From positions 2,836,220 through 2,900,219 of the forward strand of contig NZ_CP007128.1 in assembly GCF_000522985.1 (NCBI RefSeq): a stretch of 64,000 nucleotides of DNA, given 5' to 3'. The notes beneath the pieces were generated by a model. It searched no databases. It was not told where the DNA came from and worked only from the letters and a program-made list of their open reading frames with translations. This DNA comes from Gemmatirosa kalamazoonensis (GTDB taxonomy: Bacteria; Gemmatimonadota; Gemmatimonadetes; Gemmatimonadales; Gemmatimonadaceae). Positions 3,193 to 59,839 of this stretch are shown piece by piece (the stretch's first letter is position 1; each line of letters opens with the position of its first letter). Made by a program: the position numbers and the translations under genes.

Positions 3193-3857
3193 ACCGCGGC
3201 CGACGGGCACAGCGCGACGAGCGCGCAGTCGCCGCACCGCGGCTTGCGCGCGTCGCACGTGCGCCGCCCGTGGAAGATCAGCAGGTGCGACAGCATCCCC
3301 CAGCGGTCGCGCGGGAACAGCGGCATGAGCGCCTGCTCCACCTTCACCGCGTCGTCCTCCTTCGTCAGCCCGAGCCGCGCGGCGAGCCGCAGCACGTGCG
3401 TGTCGACGGTGATCCCCTCGTTGATGCCGTACGCGTTGCCGAGGATCACGTTCGCGGTCTTGCGGCCGACGCCGGGCAGCACGACCAGCTCCTCCATCGT
3501 GCGCGGCACCTCGCCGCCGTGCCGCTCGACGAGCGCGCGCGCCATCGCGATGAGGCTCTTCGCCTTGTTGCGGAAGAACCCGGTCGTCTTCACGATCTCC
3601 TCGACGTCCTCCTGCCGCGCGTCGGCGAGCGCGCGCGCGTCGGGATACTTCGCGAACAGCGTGGGCGTGACCATGTTCACGCGCTTGTCCGTGCACTGCG
3701 CGCTGAGGATCGTCGCGCACAGCAGCTCGAACGCGTTGCGGAAGTCCAGCTCGCAGTGCGCGTCGGGATACGTCTCCTCGAGCAGCGCGTAGATGCGCGC
3801 CGGATCGGTCTTCGACTTCCGCGCCTTCGTGGTCTTCGTCGTGGTCTTCGTGGCCAT
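3189..3857 (-). CDS. nth: Endonuclease III (DNA glycosylase/AP lyase)
   Basis: This 222-residue protein removes oxidised pyrimidines from DNA and nicks the resulting abasic site. The helix-hairpin-helix LPGVGRKTANVILG (127-140) carries the catalytic Lys133, and Asp152 lies in VDTHV. The C-terminal 4Fe-4S cluster ligands are complete: Cys201, Cys208, Cys211 and Cys217 in the C-X6-C-X2-C-X5-C spacing. The first 16 residues are a Lys/Thr-rich tail, longer than in E. coli Nth. The ATG overlaps the polX stop by one base (TGATG) and the stop overlaps the next start, so the three genes are almost certainly one operon. Confidence 0.96.
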   Translation of the reverse strand: MATKTTTKTTKARKSKTDPARIYALLEETYPDAHCELDFRNAFELLCATILSAQCTDKRVNMVTPTLFAKYPDARALADARQEDVEEIVKTTGFFRNKAKSLIAMARALVERHGGEVPRTMEELVVLPGVGRKTANVILGNAYGINEGITVDTHVLRLAARLGLTKEDDAVKVEQALMPLFPRDRWGMLSHLLIFHGRRTCDARKPRCGDCALVALCPSAAV

Positions 3858-6874: not shown

Positions 6875-7777
6875 TCACGCGAACTGCCGGGCGACGCGCA
6901 CGGTGTTGAGGTGCACGGCGACGGTGTCGCGCACGTCGCGGCCGTATCCGCCGGCGATCGTTAGGCACACCGGGAGGCCGACGTCGCGGCACGCCTCGAG
7001 GACCACGGCGTCGCGGCGCATGAGCCCATCGAACGTGAGCCGCAGGCGGCCGAGCCGGTCGTGCTCGTGCGGGTCGGCGCCGGCGAGATAGACCACCAGG
7101 TCGGGCGCGGCGTCGCGCAGCACGCGCGGAAGATGGTGGCCGAGCAGCTCCAGGTAGCGCTCGTCGCCGGTGCCGTCGTCGAGCTCCACGTCGAGCGAGC
7201 CGGGGATCTTGTGGAACGGGAAGTTGCGCGCGCCGTGCATGCTGAACGTGAACACGCTCGCGTCGCCGGCGAAGCACGCGTGGGTGCCGTTGCCCTGGTG
7301 CACGTCGAGATCGACGACGCACACGCGCCTAACGGATCCGGCGCGCTGCAGCCGGCGGATCGCGACGGCGACGTCGTTGAACGTGCAGAACCCCTCGCCG
7401 CGGTCGGGAAAGGCGTGGTGCGTGCCGCCGGCGAGGTTCATCGCGACGCCGTCGACGAGCGCCGCGGCGGCGGCCTCGCACGTGCCGCGCACGACGCGGT
7501 AGGCGCGCTCCACGAACGCCTCGCTCCACGGAAGGCCGATGCGCCGCTGCTCCGCCGCGCTCAGCGTGCCGGCGGTCACCGCGTCGACGTAGCGCGGCGT
7601 GTGGACGAGCAGCAGGTCCTCGCGTGGCGCGCGACCCGGGTCGTGCAGCCGCGCCGGCGTGACGAGCCCCGCCGCGAGCACCGCGTCGCGCAGCAGAGCG
7701 TACTTCGGCATGGGGAAGCGATGCCCGTCGGGCAGCGGGATCGCGTAGGCGGCGGACGACCAGAGGTGCAGCGCCAT
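6875..7777 (-). CDS. Histone deacetylase-family amidohydrolase (class IV-like, acetoin-utilisation/acetylpolyamine type)
   Basis: Translation from the ATG at 7777 gives 300 residues with the full HDAC-type zinc site: tandem His120-His121 (GGTHHA), DLDVHQGNGT with Asp158 and His160, Asp235 in AGADPHEHD, and Tyr278 in AGGYG. Bacterial members deacetylate small acetylated amines or lysines, or have unassigned substrates. The frame is open far upstream, but that part shadows the CPBP gene. The start follows the CPBP stop by 17 bp. Neighbours are a secreted peptidase, a membrane protease and an S33-like hydrolase, so a role in breaking down or processing acylated peptides or amines is conceivable but unproven. 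Confidence 0.9.
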   Translation of the reverse strand: MALHLWSSAAYAIPLPDGHRFPMPKYALLRDAVLAAGLVTPARLHDPGRAPREDLLLVHTPRYVDAVTAGTLSAAEQRRIGLPWSEAFVERAYRVVRGTCEAAAAALVDGVAMNLAGGTHHAFPDRGEGFCTFNDVAVAIRRLQRAGSVRRVCVVDLDVHQGNGTHACFAGDASVFTFSMHGARNFPFHKIPGSLDVELDDGTGDERYLELLGHHLPRVLRDAAPDLVVYLAGADPHEHDRLGRLRLTFDGLMRRDAVVLEACRDVGLPVCLTIAGGYGRDVRDTVAVHLNTVRVARQFA

Positions 7778-7794
7778 GCCCGACGGGTGTGACG

Positions 7795-8778
7795 TTAGGC
7801 GGCCGAGGCGAGCGACGTGTGGAGCGGCTCGTCGGCCACCCGCGCCCGGCCGACGCTCCGCAGCAGCGCGACCAACGCGAGACAGCTCAGGAAGAACGCG
7901 GCCGCGGACGGCCAGAAGATCGACGGCGTGTTGGCCCACCGCTGCAGCACGTGCTCGTCGATCCCCGGCGCGGCCGTGCCGCCGCCGAGCAGCATGCCGT
8001 TGTAGATCGCGTGCAGGATGACGCCCGGCCAGATGGACCGCGTGGACCACGCGAGGTAGCCCGCCGTGAGGCCGAAGATGACGCGCACCGGCAGCCCGAA
8101 GAGCTGGAAGTGCGCGAGTCCGAAGATCACCGCCGTGGCGATGATCGCCGTGCCCGGGGCGAAGCGCCGCTCGAGCCGGCTCTGGAGCCAGCCGCGGAAC
8201 AGGAACTCCTCGAGCAGCGGCACGAGCACCGCGGCGAGCGTCACGACGGTCGCGATGCCGAACGGCAGCTGGAGGAACGCGGTGAGCGGATCGTCGCGGT
8301 CGTGCGGGATGGGAATGAACCGCGGCACGACGACGAGCGAGGCGTAGACAGCGACGACGACCGCCGCGGCGATCATCGGCAGCCGGACCATGGCGGCGCG
8401 CGGCGGCACGCGCAGCCGGAACGTCTCGCGCCGGTAGCTCGCGAGCCGTCCGCCGCGCACCACGAACCACCAGACGAACAGCGCCGCCAGCGCGAGGTTG
8501 TAGAACAGCCCCGCCAGCGGCGGGATGACGGGCTGCAGCGGCGCCCCGTTGCGCATCGCGAGCGGGTTCGCCGGGAACACCGACATGCTGTGCAGCACCG
8601 TCCACAGCAGGAACGCGCCGACGGTCTGCCACCACTCGGGCCGGGGAAGGGCGGGCGCGGGCTCGTGCTCCGGCGCCGGCTCCGCGGCCATGCCGGGCTC
8701 CGTGAACGGCGTCGTCGTCGGCTCCATGACCGATTGCGTCATCTGCGGCGTCTCCTGCGGCGTTGGCGGTTCCGTCAT
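7795..8778 (-). CDS. CPBP family intramembrane glutamic endopeptidase (CAAX protease/Abi type)
   Basis: The 327-residue protein has a Pro/Glu-rich cytoplasmic N-terminus (about 48 residues) followed by seven or eight hydrophobic segments. The CPBP motifs are complete: EEFLFRG with Glu190, Glu191 and Arg195, the second motif with His223 (GLAHFQLF), and HAIYN with His256 and Asn260. Members process prenylated or other membrane proteins, or bacteriocin-related peptides. The stop codon TAA is part of one of the dispersed GTTAGGC motifs (7794-7800). The start ATG overlaps the M28 stop (ATGA), so the two proteins are translationally coupled. Confidence 0.92.
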   Translation of the reverse strand: MTEPPTPQETPQMTQSVMEPTTTPFTEPGMAAEPAPEHEPAPALPRPEWWQTVGAFLLWTVLHSMSVFPANPLAMRNGAPLQPVIPPLAGLFYNLALAALFVWWFVVRGGRLASYRRETFRLRVPPRAAMVRLPMIAAAVVVAVYASLVVVPRFIPIPHDRDDPLTAFLQLPFGIATVVTLAAVLVPLLEEFLFRGWLQSRLERRFAPGTAIIATAVIFGLAHFQLFGLPVRVIFGLTAGYLAWSTRSIWPGVILHAIYNGMLLGGGTAAPGIDEHVLQRWANTPSIFWPSAAAFFLSCLALVALLRSVGRARVADEPLHTSLASAA

Positions 8779-10073
8779 TCGCCACGCTTCCCGAGCGTGA
8801 CCGTGAGCGTGACGCGCTCACCCATCGTTCCGCGCTGGACCACGACGCGAACGACGTCACCAGGCTTGTAGGCGTTCAGGGCGTCGGTGTAGGAGTACAG
8901 GTCGGTGACGACCCGGTCCCCGAACTGTACGACGACGTCCCCCGCCTTCACGCCACCTTTGTCCGCCGGGCTGCCCGGGGTGACCCCGGTGAGGCGCATC
9001 CCCGCGGCGTCGGAGCCCATGTCGGGGATGCTGCCGAACCACGGGCGCGGTCCCGCCGTCGGGTCGGAAGCCATGCGCTGCGTGGTCGCGGTCGGCGTGA
9101 ACGTGAGGCGGCCCGGCCGGTCGGCGATGGCCCGCGCGATCGCGTGGCCGAGGTCCACGACGCGCGCCTCGCCCGGGGCATTGATCTTCTCGACGTCGTC
9201 GCCCGCCGCGTGGTAATCGGGGTGGACGTCGGTGAAGAAGTGGAGGACGGGGAGCTCCTTGAGATAGAACGGCGCGTGGTCGGACGGCCCGACGCCGTCG
9301 GGAAGCGTCTTCAGGGCGAGGCGCGGCCCGGCCGCGTTCAGCGAGTCGACGAGCCCGGGCAGCTCCGGCGCCGTGCCCACGCCGTAGACGAGCAGCTTGT
9401 CGTTCGCGAGGCGGCCGACCATGTCGAAGTTCAGCATCGCGACGACGCTGTCGAGCGGCACCGGCGGGTGGTCGACGAACCACTGGGAGCCGAGCGCCCC
9501 TTCCTCCTCGCCGCTGAACGCGACGAGCAGCACCGACCGGCGCGGCGGGTGCGCCGCGAGCAGCCGCGCCAGCTCCAGCACCGCGGCCGTCCCCGAAGCG
9601 TTGTCGTCGGCGCCGTTGCGGATCGCGGTGCCGGTGTCGCTCGCGAACAGCCGGTCGCGGCCGAGGTGGTCATAGTGCGCGCCGATGACGACCGACTGGC
9701 CGCGGAGCGCCGGGTCGCGGCCCGGAACGATCGCCACGACGTTCTGGCTCGTCAGCTCCGGCGACCGGCCCGCGTGGGCGAACGCGGCCACCTGCGCGGT
9801 GAACCGCTGCTCGACGGTGCTCAGGCCGAGGGCGCGGAAGCGTCGCGCGATGTACGCGGCCGCGCTGTCGTTGCCCGGCGAGCCCGCGAGCCGTCCCTCC
9901 AGCCGGTCGTCGGCGAGGTAGGCGACGTCGGCGTGGATGCGGGCGGCGTCGGCGGTGGAGGGGGCGCCGCGGGCCCCGCCCGGGGTGCCGGCGGTGCGGC
10001 AGGCGGCCAGCAGGATCGCCGCGGCGGCCGCTGCTCCGCGGCCGCCGAGTCGGCGGAACGTCATCGGGGACAT
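8775..10073 (-). CDS. Secreted M28 family aminopeptidase lipoprotein with C-terminal PDZ domain
   Basis: The 432-residue product begins with a lipoprotein signal, lipobox LAAC with Cys25. The zinc ligands of M28 peptidases are visible: His133 (GAHYDHLG), Asp156 or 157 (NGADDNASG), the catalytic/ligand Glu pair at about 189-190 (SGEEEGALGS), Asp217 (NFDMVG) and a His in TDVHPDYH at 282-288. Residues about 345-430 form a PDZ domain, which often binds peptide C-termini. It probably trims peptides in the periplasm. Two ATGs (10073 and 10064) are possible and neither has a clear Shine-Dalgarno sequence; I used the first. It is the first gene of a four-gene operon. Confidence 0.9.
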   Translation of the reverse strand: MSPMTFRRLGGRGAAAAAAILLAACRTAGTPGGARGAPSTADAARIHADVAYLADDRLEGRLAGSPGNDSAAAYIARRFRALGLSTVEQRFTAQVAAFAHAGRSPELTSQNVVAIVPGRDPALRGQSVVIGAHYDHLGRDRLFASDTGTAIRNGADDNASGTAAVLELARLLAAHPPRRSVLLVAFSGEEEGALGSQWFVDHPPVPLDSVVAMLNFDMVGRLANDKLLVYGVGTAPELPGLVDSLNAAGPRLALKTLPDGVGPSDHAPFYLKELPVLHFFTDVHPDYHAAGDDVEKINAPGEARVVDLGHAIARAIADRPGRLTFTPTATTQRMASDPTAGPRPWFGSIPDMGSDAAGMRLTGVTPGSPADKGGVKAGDVVVQFGDRVVTDLYSYTDALNAYKPGDVVRVVVQRGTMGERVTLTVTLGKRGE

Positions 10074-54805: not shown

Positions 54806-54917
54806 CTCTCGTCTGTTGGATGCGCGCGGACGGCCCGGCATCATCGGTACGTCCCACCTCCCGCCGCCTTCCCGCCGCCGCGCGCAACGTAGGTCGGATC
54901 TCCTGGTGACGGAGATC

Positions 54918-54983
54918 GGCTGACAACGGCAAACCCGGTGAAAACCGGGGACGCAAAGCTACGAGGCTACCGCACGCCGGACT
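54918..54983 (+). ncRNA. Cyclic di-GMP-I (GEMM-I)-like riboswitch aptamer
   Basis: The conserved GEMM pieces are in order: GGCAAA (54928-54933), a stem CCCGGT/ACCGGG closed by a GAAA tetraloop (54934-54949), and GGGACGCAAAGC (54948-54959). After this a full aptamer has a longer second helix; here only a short AGCT-ACGA-GGCT hairpin (54957-54968) and TACCG follow. A hairpin GCACGC/GCGTGC (54972-54977 with 54991-54996) lies next, then a GGAG Shine-Dalgarno (55029-55032) before the ATG at 55039. It probably controls translation of the downstream surface lipoprotein in response to c-di-GMP or a related dinucleotide. The shortened helix lowers certainty about ligand binding. Confidence 0.7.
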
Positions 54984-55038
54984 CGCTCCAGCGTGCCACG
55001 CCAGTCGAGCCGCCAAACGATCCACCCCGGAGTACTAG

Positions 55039-57546
55039 ATGTCCCCCACCCTCCCTCGTGCCCCGCGGGGCACCTGGGCCGCGGCGGCGTCGCTGTTGGT
55101 TCTGGTCGGCGCCTGCGACTCCCCGTCCACCGCGCCCTCCGATCTGGTCCCGCAGGCTCCGAATCGCGAGTCCGGTACCGGCGCGACCGTCAAATGGCTC
55201 GGCCTCTCCGCCAGCACCACGCGCCTCGTCGTGGGCAAGAGCTTCCGTTACGTCGCCCTCGCCCTAAATCCGAGCGGGCAGCAGATCACGCCCGTCCCCG
55301 CGTTCGTCTGGTCCTCGTCGCGCGCCGACGTCGCGACCATCGACTCCACGGGCCTCGCGCGCGCGCTCAAGCCCGGCCAGGTGTCGATTGTCGTCCGCCA
55401 GCGCAACGACACGCTCGGAGCGCAGACGGGCGTCGTGCTCAACGTCGTCGACGCCGTGGCCGGCAACACCGTCGCGCTCAAGGTCTCGCCGACGACCGCG
55501 AAGGTCGCCGTCGGCGGCACGACGCAGCTCACGCCGACGCCCGTCGATGCGCAGGGCAAGGCGATCACGGGCCGCACGTTCTCGTACAGCGCGCTGAAGA
55601 CGGCGATCGCCACCGTCACCTCGGCCGGCGTCGTGAAGGGCGTCGCGAACGGGACCACGACGGTGAAGGTCTCGTGCGACGGCCTAACGGTCTCGGTGCC
55701 GGTGGAAGTCGGCACGGCGTCGACGTCGTCGACGACGTCGTCGACTTCGACCTCCACGACCACGACCACCACCACCTCGCCCACGACGACGGCGAGCACG
55801 CCGACGGCGCCGACCGGCACGTCCACGAGCACGCCGGTCGTAGCGACCGTCACGGTGTCGCCGGCGAAGCTCACCGTGCAGGCGGGCAGCTCGCAGCTCC
55901 TCGTCGCGTCGACGCTCGCCGCGAACGGCACTGCCGTCGCCGGCACGACCGTCACGTGGTCGAGCAGCGCGCCTAACGTCGCGACCGTGGCCAGCGATGG
56001 CCGCGTGACGGGCGTCGCCGCCGGCACCGCGAACGTCGTCGCCACCGCCGGCACCGTAAAGGCGACCGTGCCGGTGACGGTCACCGCGGCGGCCCTCCCC
56101 ATGGGCACGCAGGTGACGCTCGCGGTCCAGCGCTTTGACGGCGGCAGCGGCCCGGTGATGGTCTCGAACGGCATCCCGCTCACGCGCGGGATGGTCACCG
56201 TGGCGAACCTCGCGCAGGTGCACGTCGTCGTGAACGGTGTCGAGCAGCGTGTATATGTGCGGCCGCTGTACGGCCGGCACAGCGACGGCTCGCTCCGCGC
56301 GCTGTTCGTGCAGTTCGACTACAACATCCCGAACGCGGCGCCCATCGCGGCGACGCTCGTCGTCGGCGGCGGCTCTCGCACGCAGCCCGACCTCGCGGCG
56401 CGCCCCGCGAAGCAGGTTCCGGCGGCGGCCGCGCTCCCGACGGACGCCACGTACCTCGTGTCCACGCGTTGGACCGGTGTCACGTACGCGGCGAAGAGCT
56501 TGACGCCGATGTCGCTCGCGCCGCAGTACGAGAGCGACTACGCGCGCCTCGAGGCCGCCGACTGGTCGGCGTGCGGGCCCAAGTTCGACTGCGGCCGGAC
56601 GGCGGGCTACGACCGCGCGTACATCCTGTATCAGGCGTGGCAGCGCAGCGGTAATCCCACGTACTGGTATCACGCGACCGCCGCCGCTGCCGACTACCTC
56701 AACGGGTACGTCATCCCGAACGGCGGCCCGACGGCGTGGTGGAGTCAGACCGAGGGCGTCGCCGTGCACTACTGGGCGACCGGCGACGAGATGAGTCGCT
56801 ATCAGCTGCGCAAGATGGCCGAGATGCTCGCGTGGATGGTCCGCCCCGGTTTCTCGGCCTACATCGGCGGCACGTACGGCGACGATCGCTTCCGGGCCAA
56901 GGCGATGATGGCGGCACTCGACGCCGCCATGCTGGAGATCTCCACGCAGCCCGCCGACGCCGCGAACTACTACAAGTCAATGGGCGCGGCGAACACCTAC
57001 TACGCGTCGTACCTGACGCCGTCGACGCTGGGCACGTGGGTGACCGCGGTGCTCGGCACCCAGCGAAAGAACGGCCAGTTCGGTGGCCGGTACTACAGCG
57101 CCGGCACGTGGAGCGCGGATTCCGGCGGCCAGTCGAACTACATGGTCGGCATGCTGCTCTCGGCGCTCATTCGCTACTACGACGAGGTCAGCCCCGACTC
57201 GCGTATCCCGGCGGCGGTAAAGAAGTGCATCGACGATATGTGGGCGCGCGAGTGGGAGCCGTCGCAGCTGGCGTTCGAGTATCACAGCCTCCGCGGCACC
57301 GACGAGGGGGCGACCACGCCGGCGCGCCCGAACCCGGAACCGGGGCTGAACGGCTTCATGGCGTACCCGTTCGCGTGGTACGCGCGGGTGGCCGGCGGTG
57401 CGACGTACGACGCACGGGTCGACCAGATCCTGACGGGTCTCGCGCAGTCCGTGAGCCGCAACTGGTGGGCGGCGTCGGGCAAGGCGTTCGACGAGGCGTT
57501 CGCGCACCTGTTCAACACCTTCGCGTTCCGCGCGGGGCTGCACTGA
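55039..57546 (+). CDS. Surface lipoprotein with three Ig-like domains and a lyase-like alpha-helical C-terminal domain
   Basis: The 835-residue protein has a lipoprotein signal (VGAC, Cys26), three BIG2-type Ig domains (about 50-135, 145-225, 268-350) and a Ser/Thr-rich spacer (about 228-262) between the second and third. From about 355 a beta-sandwich region resembles the N-terminal domain of PcRGLX/YetA-like proteins (VSNGIPLTRGMVTVANLAQ, DGSLRALFVQFDY). An all-helical part follows (YWYHATAAAADYLNGYVIP, MAEMLAWMVRPGFSAYIGG). I infer a polysaccharide lyase or hydrolase held out from the surface. It follows the c-di-GMP-I-like aptamer. Its C-terminal 480 residues are nearly repeated in the next gene. 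Confidence 0.75.
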   Translation: MSPTLPRAPRGTWAAAASLLVLVGACDSPSTAPSDLVPQAPNRESGTGATVKWLGLSASTTRLVVGKSFRYVALALNPSGQQITPVPAFVWSSSRADVATIDSTGLARALKPGQVSIVVRQRNDTLGAQTGVVLNVVDAVAGNTVALKVSPTTAKVAVGGTTQLTPTPVDAQGKAITGRTFSYSALKTAIATVTSAGVVKGVANGTTTVKVSCDGLTVSVPVEVGTASTSSTTSSTSTSTTTTTTTSPTTTASTPTAPTGTSTSTPVVATVTVSPAKLTVQAGSSQLLVASTLAANGTAVAGTTVTWSSSAPNVATVASDGRVTGVAAGTANVVATAGTVKATVPVTVTAAALPMGTQVTLAVQRFDGGSGPVMVSNGIPLTRGMVTVANLAQVHVVVNGVEQRVYVRPLYGRHSDGSLRALFVQFDYNIPNAAPIAATLVVGGGSRTQPDLAARPAKQVPAAAALPTDATYLVSTRWTGVTYAAKSLTPMSLAPQYESDYARLEAADWSACGPKFDCGRTAGYDRAYILYQAWQRSGNPTYWYHATAAAADYLNGYVIPNGGPTAWWSQTEGVAVHYWATGDEMSRYQLRKMAEMLAWMVRPGFSAYIGGTYGDDRFRAKAMMAALDAAMLEISTQPADAANYYKSMGAANTYYASYLTPSTLGTWVTAVLGTQRKNGQFGGRYYSAGTWSADSGGQSNYMVGMLLSALIRYYDEVSPDSRIPAAVKKCIDDMWAREWEPSQLAFEYHSLRGTDEGATTPARPNPEPGLNGFMAYPFAWYARVAGGATYDARVDQILTGLAQSVSRNWWAASGKAFDEAFAHLFNTFAFRAGLH

Positions 57547-57593: not shown

Positions 57594-57635
57594 GACGCGG
57601 GGCCGGTGTGCATCGATGCACACCGGCCCCGCGTC
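57594..57635 (+). terminator. 42-bp perfect palindrome terminator
   Basis: Arms of 21 bp (57594-57614 and 57615-57635, core GGCCGGTGTGCATC) meet without a spacer and are followed by TCTTTC. It lies 47 bp after the first lipoprotein gene and should insulate the second copy from riboswitch-controlled read-through. Confidence 0.8.
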
Positions 57636-57871
57636 TCTTTCGGCGCACGGCTGCCCCGAACCGGAATGTGCGCTATCTTGTGCTGTAGATCACGCGCTTT
57701 CGTTACGCCCGGGTTCGATTCAGAGTCGCTCACGCGATCGTGATCGCGAAAGCCCTCAGCTCGGCCTCCCAGCCCCTGGGAGCCGACCGTCGCGCCCGGA
57801 CGGATCGGCTCTCGCCTTCCGGGGCACCGATCGAACCGCCTGTACGCGGCTTCGTCTCTGCAGCCCGGATC

Positions 57872-59839
57872 ATGCCCCTGTCGGAGTCTCGCCTGCTGAT
57901 CGCCGCGCCCATCGCCGTGTGCATCGCGCTCGCCGCGGCATGCGACTCGACACCGACCGCGCTCGCCGCGCGCGCCGTGCCGTCCCGGCTCACGCTGGCC
58001 TCGGCGAGCCGTCTCGAGCTCACGTTCCTCGCCGGCGACGTCGACACCACCACCTGGACGGTCCGGCTCGGCGGTGCGGCGAACTTCGCCGCCGTCGCCT
58101 ACGATAGCAGCAACAACAAGTTCGCCGTGTCCGGGGCGGTGTATCACAGCTCCGACGACTCGGTGCTCGCCGTCGACTCGACGACCGGGCAGCTGCTCGC
58201 CGTGCACCTCGGCGCCGCCTCGGTCGTCGCCACCGTGAACGGGATCTCGGGGTCGAGCCCGGTGATCACCGTGGTCGACACGGTCGCGCCGCCGCCCGAC
58301 TCGACGCCCGCACCGCCGGATTCGACACCCGCGCCGCCGGACTCGACCGCGACGCCCCCTCAGCCATCCCCCGACTCCACGTTCGTCGCCCCGGGTAGTG
58401 GGCAGGTCGCGCTGATGGTGCAGCGCTTCGATGGCGGGAGCGGAGTCGTGACGGTCTCGAACGGCATCCCCCTCACGAAGGGCCTCGCGAACGAGTCGAA
58501 CCTCGGGCAGTTCCACGTGCGCGTGAATGGCGCCGAGCAGGCCGTATACGTGCGGCCGCTCGCCGGCCACTTCAAGGACGGCTCGCTGCGCGCCGTCCTC
58601 GTGCAGTTCGACTACGACGTCCCGGCGAGCGGTGCGATCCCGGCCACGCTCGTGATCGGCGGCGGGCCGCGTACGCAGCCCGACCTTGCGGCGCGTCCCA
58701 CGCAGCAGGTGCCCGCGGCGGCCGCGCTCCCGACAGACCCGAACTACCTCGCGGCGAGCCGGTGGGGTGGTGTGCTGTACGCCGCGCGCCCTCCCGCGCC
58801 GTCGGTGCTCGCCGCGCAGTTCGATGCGGACTATGCCCGTCTCGAGGCCGCCGACTGGTCCAAGTGCGGGCCCCGGTGGGGATGTAACCGGACGGCGGGC
58901 TACGACCGCGCGTACATCCTGTACCAGGCGTGGCAGCGCACTGCGAATCCCACGTACTGGTATCACGCGACCGCCGCGGCCGCCGACTACGTGAAGGGCT
59001 ATATCGTGCCGAGCGGGGCGCCGACGGCGTGGTGGGCCCAGTCCGAGGGTATGGCGGTGCACTACTGGGCGACCGGCGACGAGATGAGCCGCTACCAGCT
59101 GCGCAAGATGGCGGAGATGCTCGCCTGGATGGTCCGCCCCGGCTTCTCGGCCTACATCGGCGGCACGTACGGCGACGATCGCTTCCGCGCCAAGGCCATG
59201 ATGGCGGCGCTCGACGCGGCGATGCTCGAGATCTCCACGCAGCCCGCCGACGCGGGGAACTACTACAAGTCGGTCGGCGCGGCGAACACCTACTACGCGT
59301 CGTACCTCACGCCGTCGACGCTGGGCACGTGGGTGACCGCGGTGCTCGGCACCCAGCGGACGGACGGGCAGTTCGGCGGCCGCTACTACAGCTACGGCAC
59401 GTGGAGCCCGGATTCGGGCGGCCAGTCGAACTACATGGTCGGCATGCTGCTCTCGGCGCTCATCCGCTACTACGAGGAGGTCACGCCGGACCCGCGTATC
59501 CCGGATGCGGTCAAGAAGTGCATCGACGACATGTGGACGCGCGAGTGGGAGCCGTCGCAGCTGGCGTTCGAGTATCACAGCCTCCGCGGCACCGACGAAG
59601 GCGCGAAGGTCGCCGCGCATCCGAACCCGGAGCCCGGGCTGAACGGGTTCATGGCGCATCCCTTCGCCTGGTACGCGCGCGTGACGGGGGACGGCAGCTA
59701 CGACGCGAAGGTCGATCAGATTCTCGCTGGTCTCGCGCAGCCGGTCAGCCGCAACTGGTGGGCGAGCTCGCCGAAGGCGTTCGACGAGGCCTTCTCGCAC
59801 CTCTTCAACACGCTCGCCTATCGTGCCGGGTTACGCTGA
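57872..59839 (+). CDS. Second surface lipoprotein with the same lyase-like C-terminal domain (tandem paralogue)
   Basis: The 655-residue protein begins at an ATG and has its own lipobox (AAAC, Cys24). It carries one Ig-like region (about 35-135) and a spacer made of APPDSTP repeats (about 140-165), where the first copy has three Ig domains and a Ser/Thr spacer. From VQRFDGGSGVVTVSNGIPL onward it parallels the first copy almost residue for residue (YGDDRFRAKAMMAALDAAML and SYLTPSTLGTWVTAVLGTQR are identical in both). The pair arose by tandem duplication with exchange or decay of the N-terminal part. It has no visible riboswitch. Function inferred as in the first copy. Confidence 0.75.
   Translation: MPLSESRLLIAAPIAVCIALAAACDSTPTALAARAVPSRLTLASASRLELTFLAGDVDTTTWTVRLGGAANFAAVAYDSSNNKFAVSGAVYHSSDDSVLAVDSTTGQLLAVHLGAASVVATVNGISGSSPVITVVDTVAPPPDSTPAPPDSTPAPPDSTATPPQPSPDSTFVAPGSGQVALMVQRFDGGSGVVTVSNGIPLTKGLANESNLGQFHVRVNGAEQAVYVRPLAGHFKDGSLRAVLVQFDYDVPASGAIPATLVIGGGPRTQPDLAARPTQQVPAAAALPTDPNYLAASRWGGVLYAARPPAPSVLAAQFDADYARLEAADWSKCGPRWGCNRTAGYDRAYILYQAWQRTANPTYWYHATAAAADYVKGYIVPSGAPTAWWAQSEGMAVHYWATGDEMSRYQLRKMAEMLAWMVRPGFSAYIGGTYGDDRFRAKAMMAALDAAMLEISTQPADAGNYYKSVGAANTYYASYLTPSTLGTWVTAVLGTQRTDGQFGGRYYSYGTWSPDSGGQSNYMVGMLLSALIRYYEEVTPDPRIPDAVKKCIDDMWTREWEPSQLAFEYHSLRGTDEGAKVAAHPNPEPGLNGFMAHPFAWYARVTGDGSYDAKVDQILAGLAQPVSRNWWASSPKAFDEAFSHLFNTLAYRAGLR

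Follow-up and report, generated by a model that had tools for sequence, protein, structure and literature searches.

A predicted canonical class-I c-di-GMP riboswitch with a full-length P3 ahead of a lipoprotein gene in Gemmatirosa kalamazoonensis

The locus and its features

The window, that is, the whole stretch of 64,000 nucleotides from Gemmatirosa kalamazoonensis that was analysed, carries on its forward strand a predicted aptamer of the c-di-GMP-I (GEMM-I) type and, starting 20 nucleotides past the Rfam end of this aptamer, a gene (55039-57546) whose product is a lipoprotein with the lipobox LVGAC and three Big_2 stretches. This gene lies in a polysaccharide cluster encoding Wzx-like and Wzy_C-like proteins as well as glycosyltransferases, which bears out an earlier note on this DNA that had described the next gene as coding for a lipoprotein with Ig domains inside an exopolysaccharide cluster. 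The lipoprotein gene is separated from the following same-strand gene by a 21-bp inverted repeat that ends in a T-rich tail (57594-57640), so the riboswitch probably controls the lipoprotein gene alone. The features of the locus are the following:

54897-54917 (+): upstream hairpin GAUCUCC-N7-GGAGAUC, a candidate part of the expression platform (from sequence and fold)
54914-55022 (+): predicted c-di-GMP-I (GEMM-I) aptamer including an extended P1 (RF03167, RF01051 and model R1)
54914-54922 (+): P1 5' strand (model alignment and P1 covariation in 39 aptamers; outermost pairs from the sequence)
54914-54918 (GAUCG) with 55018-55022 (CGAUC) (+): outer pairs of P1, read from the sequence
U54921-A55015 and G54922-C55014 (the latter being G14-C93 of Vc2): inner pairs of P1, separated from the outer pairs by a 2x2 internal loop
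54928 (+): G20 in Vc2 numbering, contact to a ligand guanine (role according to PMC4744006)
54929-54954 (+): P2 with its GAAA tetraloop at 54940-54943 (94.9-100% of cells paired)
54929-54930/54953-54954 and 54934-54939/54944-54949 (+): helices of P2
54955 (+): A47, which stacks between the two guanines of the ligand
54958-54967 (+): P3 5' strand, with its partner at 55000-55010 (covariation in 39 aptamers)
54968-54999 (+): receptor-like internal loop (UACC/CAC) and capping stem-loop; a receptor role would follow by analogy with known GEMM-I structures
54972-54976/54992-54996 (+): capping stem of P3 (94.2% of cells paired)
55000-55013 (+): P3 3' strand with a bulged A-G, then J3/1 (G55004 is G83, C55013 is C92)
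C54952 and G55004 (+): C44-G83 contact (contact according to PMC3764141)
55029-55032 (+): Shine-Dalgarno GGAG, 6 nucleotides past the end of P1 (from the sequence; relatives are similarly short-spaced)
55039-57546 (+): target lipoprotein gene, with lipobox LVGAC, Big_2 stretches and a C-terminal domain at about residues 353-835
57594-57640 (+): 21-bp inverted repeat with a short T-rich tail, terminator-like, from the sequence

The C-terminal 483 residues of the lipoprotein gave no Pfam or NCBIfam match. Their predicted structure (pLDDT 82.6) combines a beta-sandwich with an alpha/alpha barrel, and the best structural matches were sugar 2-epimerases and GH88/GH105 proteins (TM about 0.4-0.5, about 10-13% identity), with one polysaccharide lyase among the weak matches. 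Within the domain, Y172-D173-R174, H225 and R265 (domain numbering) are conserved. The 'lyase-like' domain of the earlier note thus holds as a resemblance to alpha/alpha-barrel sugar enzymes at the level of the fold, and lacks a family match; we take the domain to be a predicted carbohydrate-active fold, putatively sugar-active.

Identity of the aptamer and the extent of P3

A scan of the whole window with Rfam returned a single match above gathering, that of RF03167 (c-di-GMP-I-GGC) at 54919-55018, with 65.9 bits (gathering score, 59) and an E-value of 2.4e-13. The same element scored 69.6 bits with RF01051 (c-di-GMP-I), whose gathering score is 35. A custom covariance model, R1, gave it 90.3 bits, the runner-up in 20 kb reaching 9.5 bits; since the window element is one of the 39 aptamers on which R1 was built, the independent evidence is that of the Rfam scores. 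GGCAAA, the GAAA-capped stem and GGGACGCAAAGC were all found in the window sequence. P1 reaches 54914, slightly 5' of the start in the earlier note, whose GEMM-I-like riboswitch at 54918-55041 was hence confirmed both by these motifs and by model matches above threshold.

The second helix had also been described as cut to about four pairs (54957-54968), and this part of the description did not stand. In the Rfam alignment, 54958-54967 pairs with 55000-55010, about 30 nucleotides further on and across an extra stem-loop. When 39 aligned aptamers were analysed, 93.3% of the cells of the whole structure were paired, with changes on both sides at 21 of the 27 pairs, and none of 500 shuffles was paired to such a level. 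For the long P3, 99.4% of cells were paired and seven of nine pairs showed double changes, whereas the four-pair helix showed none at any of its four pairs, and every shuffle paired at least equally well. What was taken for a four-pair helix is thus a fold-back of the P3 5' strand, and it appears conserved because the P3 strand itself is conserved. Within P3, a free-energy fold of the single RNA picks the local hairpin, which explains the earlier misreading. This local AGCU/GGCU pairing, favoured by free energy, is what speaks for a minimal GEMM-I variant whose second helix has four pairs, a reading to which the absence of compensatory changes in the short helix, against those of the long P3, leaves virtually no chance. 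The local hairpin is possibly an alternative fold of the ligand-free RNA; the fold energy of the window RNA was only 1.34 standard deviations below that of shuffles. The full-length P3 removes the supposed minimal variant, and the case shows how, with a long insert, the 5' strand of P3 can be mistaken for a short helix.

We also analyzed the ligand pocket, mapping Vc2 numbering onto the window by means of the conserved motifs. In Vc2 the ligand is contacted by G20, A47 and C92 (PMC4744006; PMC3764141), and GEMM-I RNAs share an interhelical contact between C44 and G83 (PMC3764141). The corresponding nucleotides of the window, G54928, A54955 and C55013, are all canonical, and among 95 aligned aptamers A47 was present in 95, G20 in 88 and C92 in 84. 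Position 91 is G in the window; the printed RF01051 consensus has the same base, as do 78 of the 95, and G-A-G-C at positions 20/47/91/92 was the commonest combination (63/95). The C44-G83 tie is present as C54952 and G55004, relatives having this C in 95/95 and this G in 94/95 cases. The change G20A has been linked to cGAMP (PMC7288161); the GEMM-Ib (3',3'-cGAMP) riboswitch has the same scaffold as the window element, but its hallmark is A at position 20, where the window has G54928.

The better E-value of RF03167, together with a score above its gathering value, would fit a c-di-GMP-I-GGC variant with a possibly altered ligand preference. The fold in general agrees with this family, but its consensus has G at position 47 (GACGC-G-AA), whereas the window has A54955, a mismatch in the model alignment, and all 95 aligned relatives have A as well. 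In our reading, the letters of GGC and UAU stand for positions 20, 47 and 92, 47 being the second letter of GGC. The bit score is higher with RF01051, and the printed consensus of RF01051 contains GACGCAAA, so that a GGC variant is quite improbable. Because the G at position 47 of RF03167 is absent from the window, that family leads by E-value only, and RF01051 is the more fitting family for the element. The P2 with a GNRA loop (GAAA) and the full-length, covarying P3 that mark RF01051 are both present.

With Vc2 and Vc1 of Vibrio cholerae (RF01051) the window element shares the P1/P2/P3 layout, the GAAA loop, the P3 receptor region, the C44-G83 tie, the G20/A47/C92 pocket and a surface-protein gene directly downstream. 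It differs from them in a longer capping stem-loop of P3 (54968-54999), an extended P1 with a 2x2 internal loop and a Shine-Dalgarno that follows at a very short distance; each of these differences falls within the range of its relatives. Collectively, we consider, with a probability of about 90%, that 54914-55022 would be a canonical class-I c-di-GMP riboswitch with complete P1, P2 and P3, as judged from its sequence; it is a typical member of the known c-di-GMP-I family and not a new variant. The earlier suggestions of a minimal variant, a variant with another ligand or a decayed aptamer all run against the full length of P3, the canonical state of the ligand-contact positions tested and the intact covarying pairs.

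Linkage to lipoprotein genes and distribution in Gemmatimonadota

A genome-contig search found no named relatives of the whole lipoprotein, and the C-terminal domain was then used as query. Homologues of this domain were detected in 14 of 395 genomes, and in seven other genomes an Rfam c-di-GMP-I aptamer was found near a homologue. Six of these seven (L108, L101, L113, L102, L110 and L103) are genomes in which the homologous domain is in frame in the first gene, about 17-30 nucleotides after the aptamer, so that the element is conserved ahead of homologues; in L106 a different frame of 134 codons lies between the aptamer and the homologue. The linked domains are distant, about 30-44% identical to that of the window, and the link is hence old or repeatedly gained. 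Aptamers of many relatives precede lipoproteins, often with Ig-like repeats, and short spacing between aptamer and start codon is common to many of them. The source genome also has three paralogues of the C-terminal domain, ahead of which no convincing aptamer was found with filters off (best score, 11.5 bits). One of these three lies within the window (57740-59839), is 80% identical over 58394-59833 and is without an aptamer. Near a distant homologue of the domain, a cobalamin riboswitch (62.5 bits) was observed at L117:5558-5736(-).

The architecture of the window aptamer recurs across Gemmatimonadota. Matches to RF03167 were present in 204 of the 395 genomes of this phylum, and matches to RF01051 in 73 of 99 sampled genomes of the same family. 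The exact P2-P3 signature was found in 85 named stretches, nearly all from Gemmatimonadota, one being labelled Alphaproteobacteria and two Clostridia. The source genome has two c-di-GMP-I aptamer copies. The second, L005:6762-6850(+), scores 48.3 bits with RF01051 and precedes a gene (6907-8898) whose lipoprotein product has three SdrD B-like domains. Just past that gene, a near-perfect inverted repeat of about 75 nucleotides (L005:8907-8981) is terminator-like. Many microRNA matches in L005 were rejected as spurious, since they arise from this one long inverted repeat.

A decayed or non-functional aptamer could be argued from the weaker score of this second copy, from a free-energy fold that by itself does not give the aptamer structure, and from P1, which has a 2x2 internal loop in the window and a bulge in relatives. 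Decay is highly improbable, given that every conserved position and helix is preserved, that the score is well over threshold and that the link between aptamer and gene is kept across genera. Against our own explanation we count this P1 loop, the free-energy preference for a local hairpin together with the small gap between the fold energy and that of shuffles, the lack of a consistent switching direction in constrained folds, and the three paralogues with no aptamer. The reading as a canonical c-di-GMP-I riboswitch places a family of surface lipoproteins, and a second lipoprotein of the SdrD-B kind, under likely c-di-GMP control in Gemmatimonadota. Among the papers searched, none named both Gemmatimonadetes and a c-di-GMP riboswitch.

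Possible mode of control and variant aptamers

The ligand c-di-GMP, translational control and the function of the gene are each what we infer for the window element. There are 22 GGDEF matches in the source genome, so the ligand is presumably made. It would bind where the three helices meet, in contact with G54928, A54955 and C55013, and, going by the known Vc2 structure, the GAAA loop of P2 would dock on P3. Binding would stabilise P1, whose 3' strand ends 6 nucleotides before the Shine-Dalgarno, and this stabilisation could alter ribosome access to the one surface-lipoprotein gene downstream. A scan of the interval between aptamer and gene showed no intrinsic terminator, and few nucleotides separate the aptamer from the Shine-Dalgarno, so that control is likely exerted at translation. 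When the aptamer was imposed as a constraint on the fold of 62 loci, the mean accessibility of the Shine-Dalgarno decreased from 0.30 to 0.23 (paired p 0.003, the loci being related), whereas in the window it rose from 0.39 to 0.47, opposite to this mean.

The 3' arm of the upstream hairpin (54911-54917) overlaps P1, and CUCC in its 5' arm (54900-54903) could pair with GGAG. In an expression platform lying 5' of the aptamer, ligand-stabilised P1 would free this CUCC, which would then mask the Shine-Dalgarno GGAG; we regard such an arrangement as rather unlikely. By eye, a similar hairpin, pyrimidine-rich arm first and purine-rich arm second, was seen directly before P1 in many relatives. A scan for sigma-70 promoters gave no match. 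About 10-35 nucleotides before the aptamer, many relatives have a recurrent GGCA-G/C-GATCGC, possibly a promoter element recognised by an alternative sigma factor.

Some GEMM-I aptamers keep G20 and A47 but have U92, and in a subset of these, from two genera of the family, GUCGCGCGG replaces GCCGAACGG. The U92 loci are L155:887-985(-), L152:4056-4154(-), L160:3962-4060(-), L140:5275-5375(-), L135:2091-2189(-), L197:3575-3674(+), L196:1646-1745(-) and L190:4577-4675(+), as well as L203-L212. Nine of ten pattern matches with U92 and GUCGCGCGG, from the two genera, directly precede a lipoprotein with an S8 peptidase signature, the tenth being unclear; the sequence after U92 was fixed by the search pattern and the uniformity of the genes was not. 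Pfam S8 and I9 were both detected on one U92-associated lipoprotein. Rfam assigns the U92 examples tested to plain RF01051. A G20A/C92U double mutant of a c-di-GMP-I riboswitch has been reported to bind c-di-AMP (PMC7288161). The U92 aptamers are possibly a group of altered specificity, and may deserve a study of their own more than the window element does.

Upstream tandem partners in which position 20 is A and position 48 is G (CAGAGCAAA ... GACGCAGAGC) were observed at L154:2134-2228(-), L166:1473-1569(-) and L153:5445-5540(+); these combine the cGAMP-type change at 20 with a canonical aptamer in tandem, before Big_2-like lipoproteins. Tandem c-di-GMP-I aptamers also precede a lipoprotein gene at L185:3534-3631(+) and 3712-3815(+), where the upstream one has U aligned at position 92.
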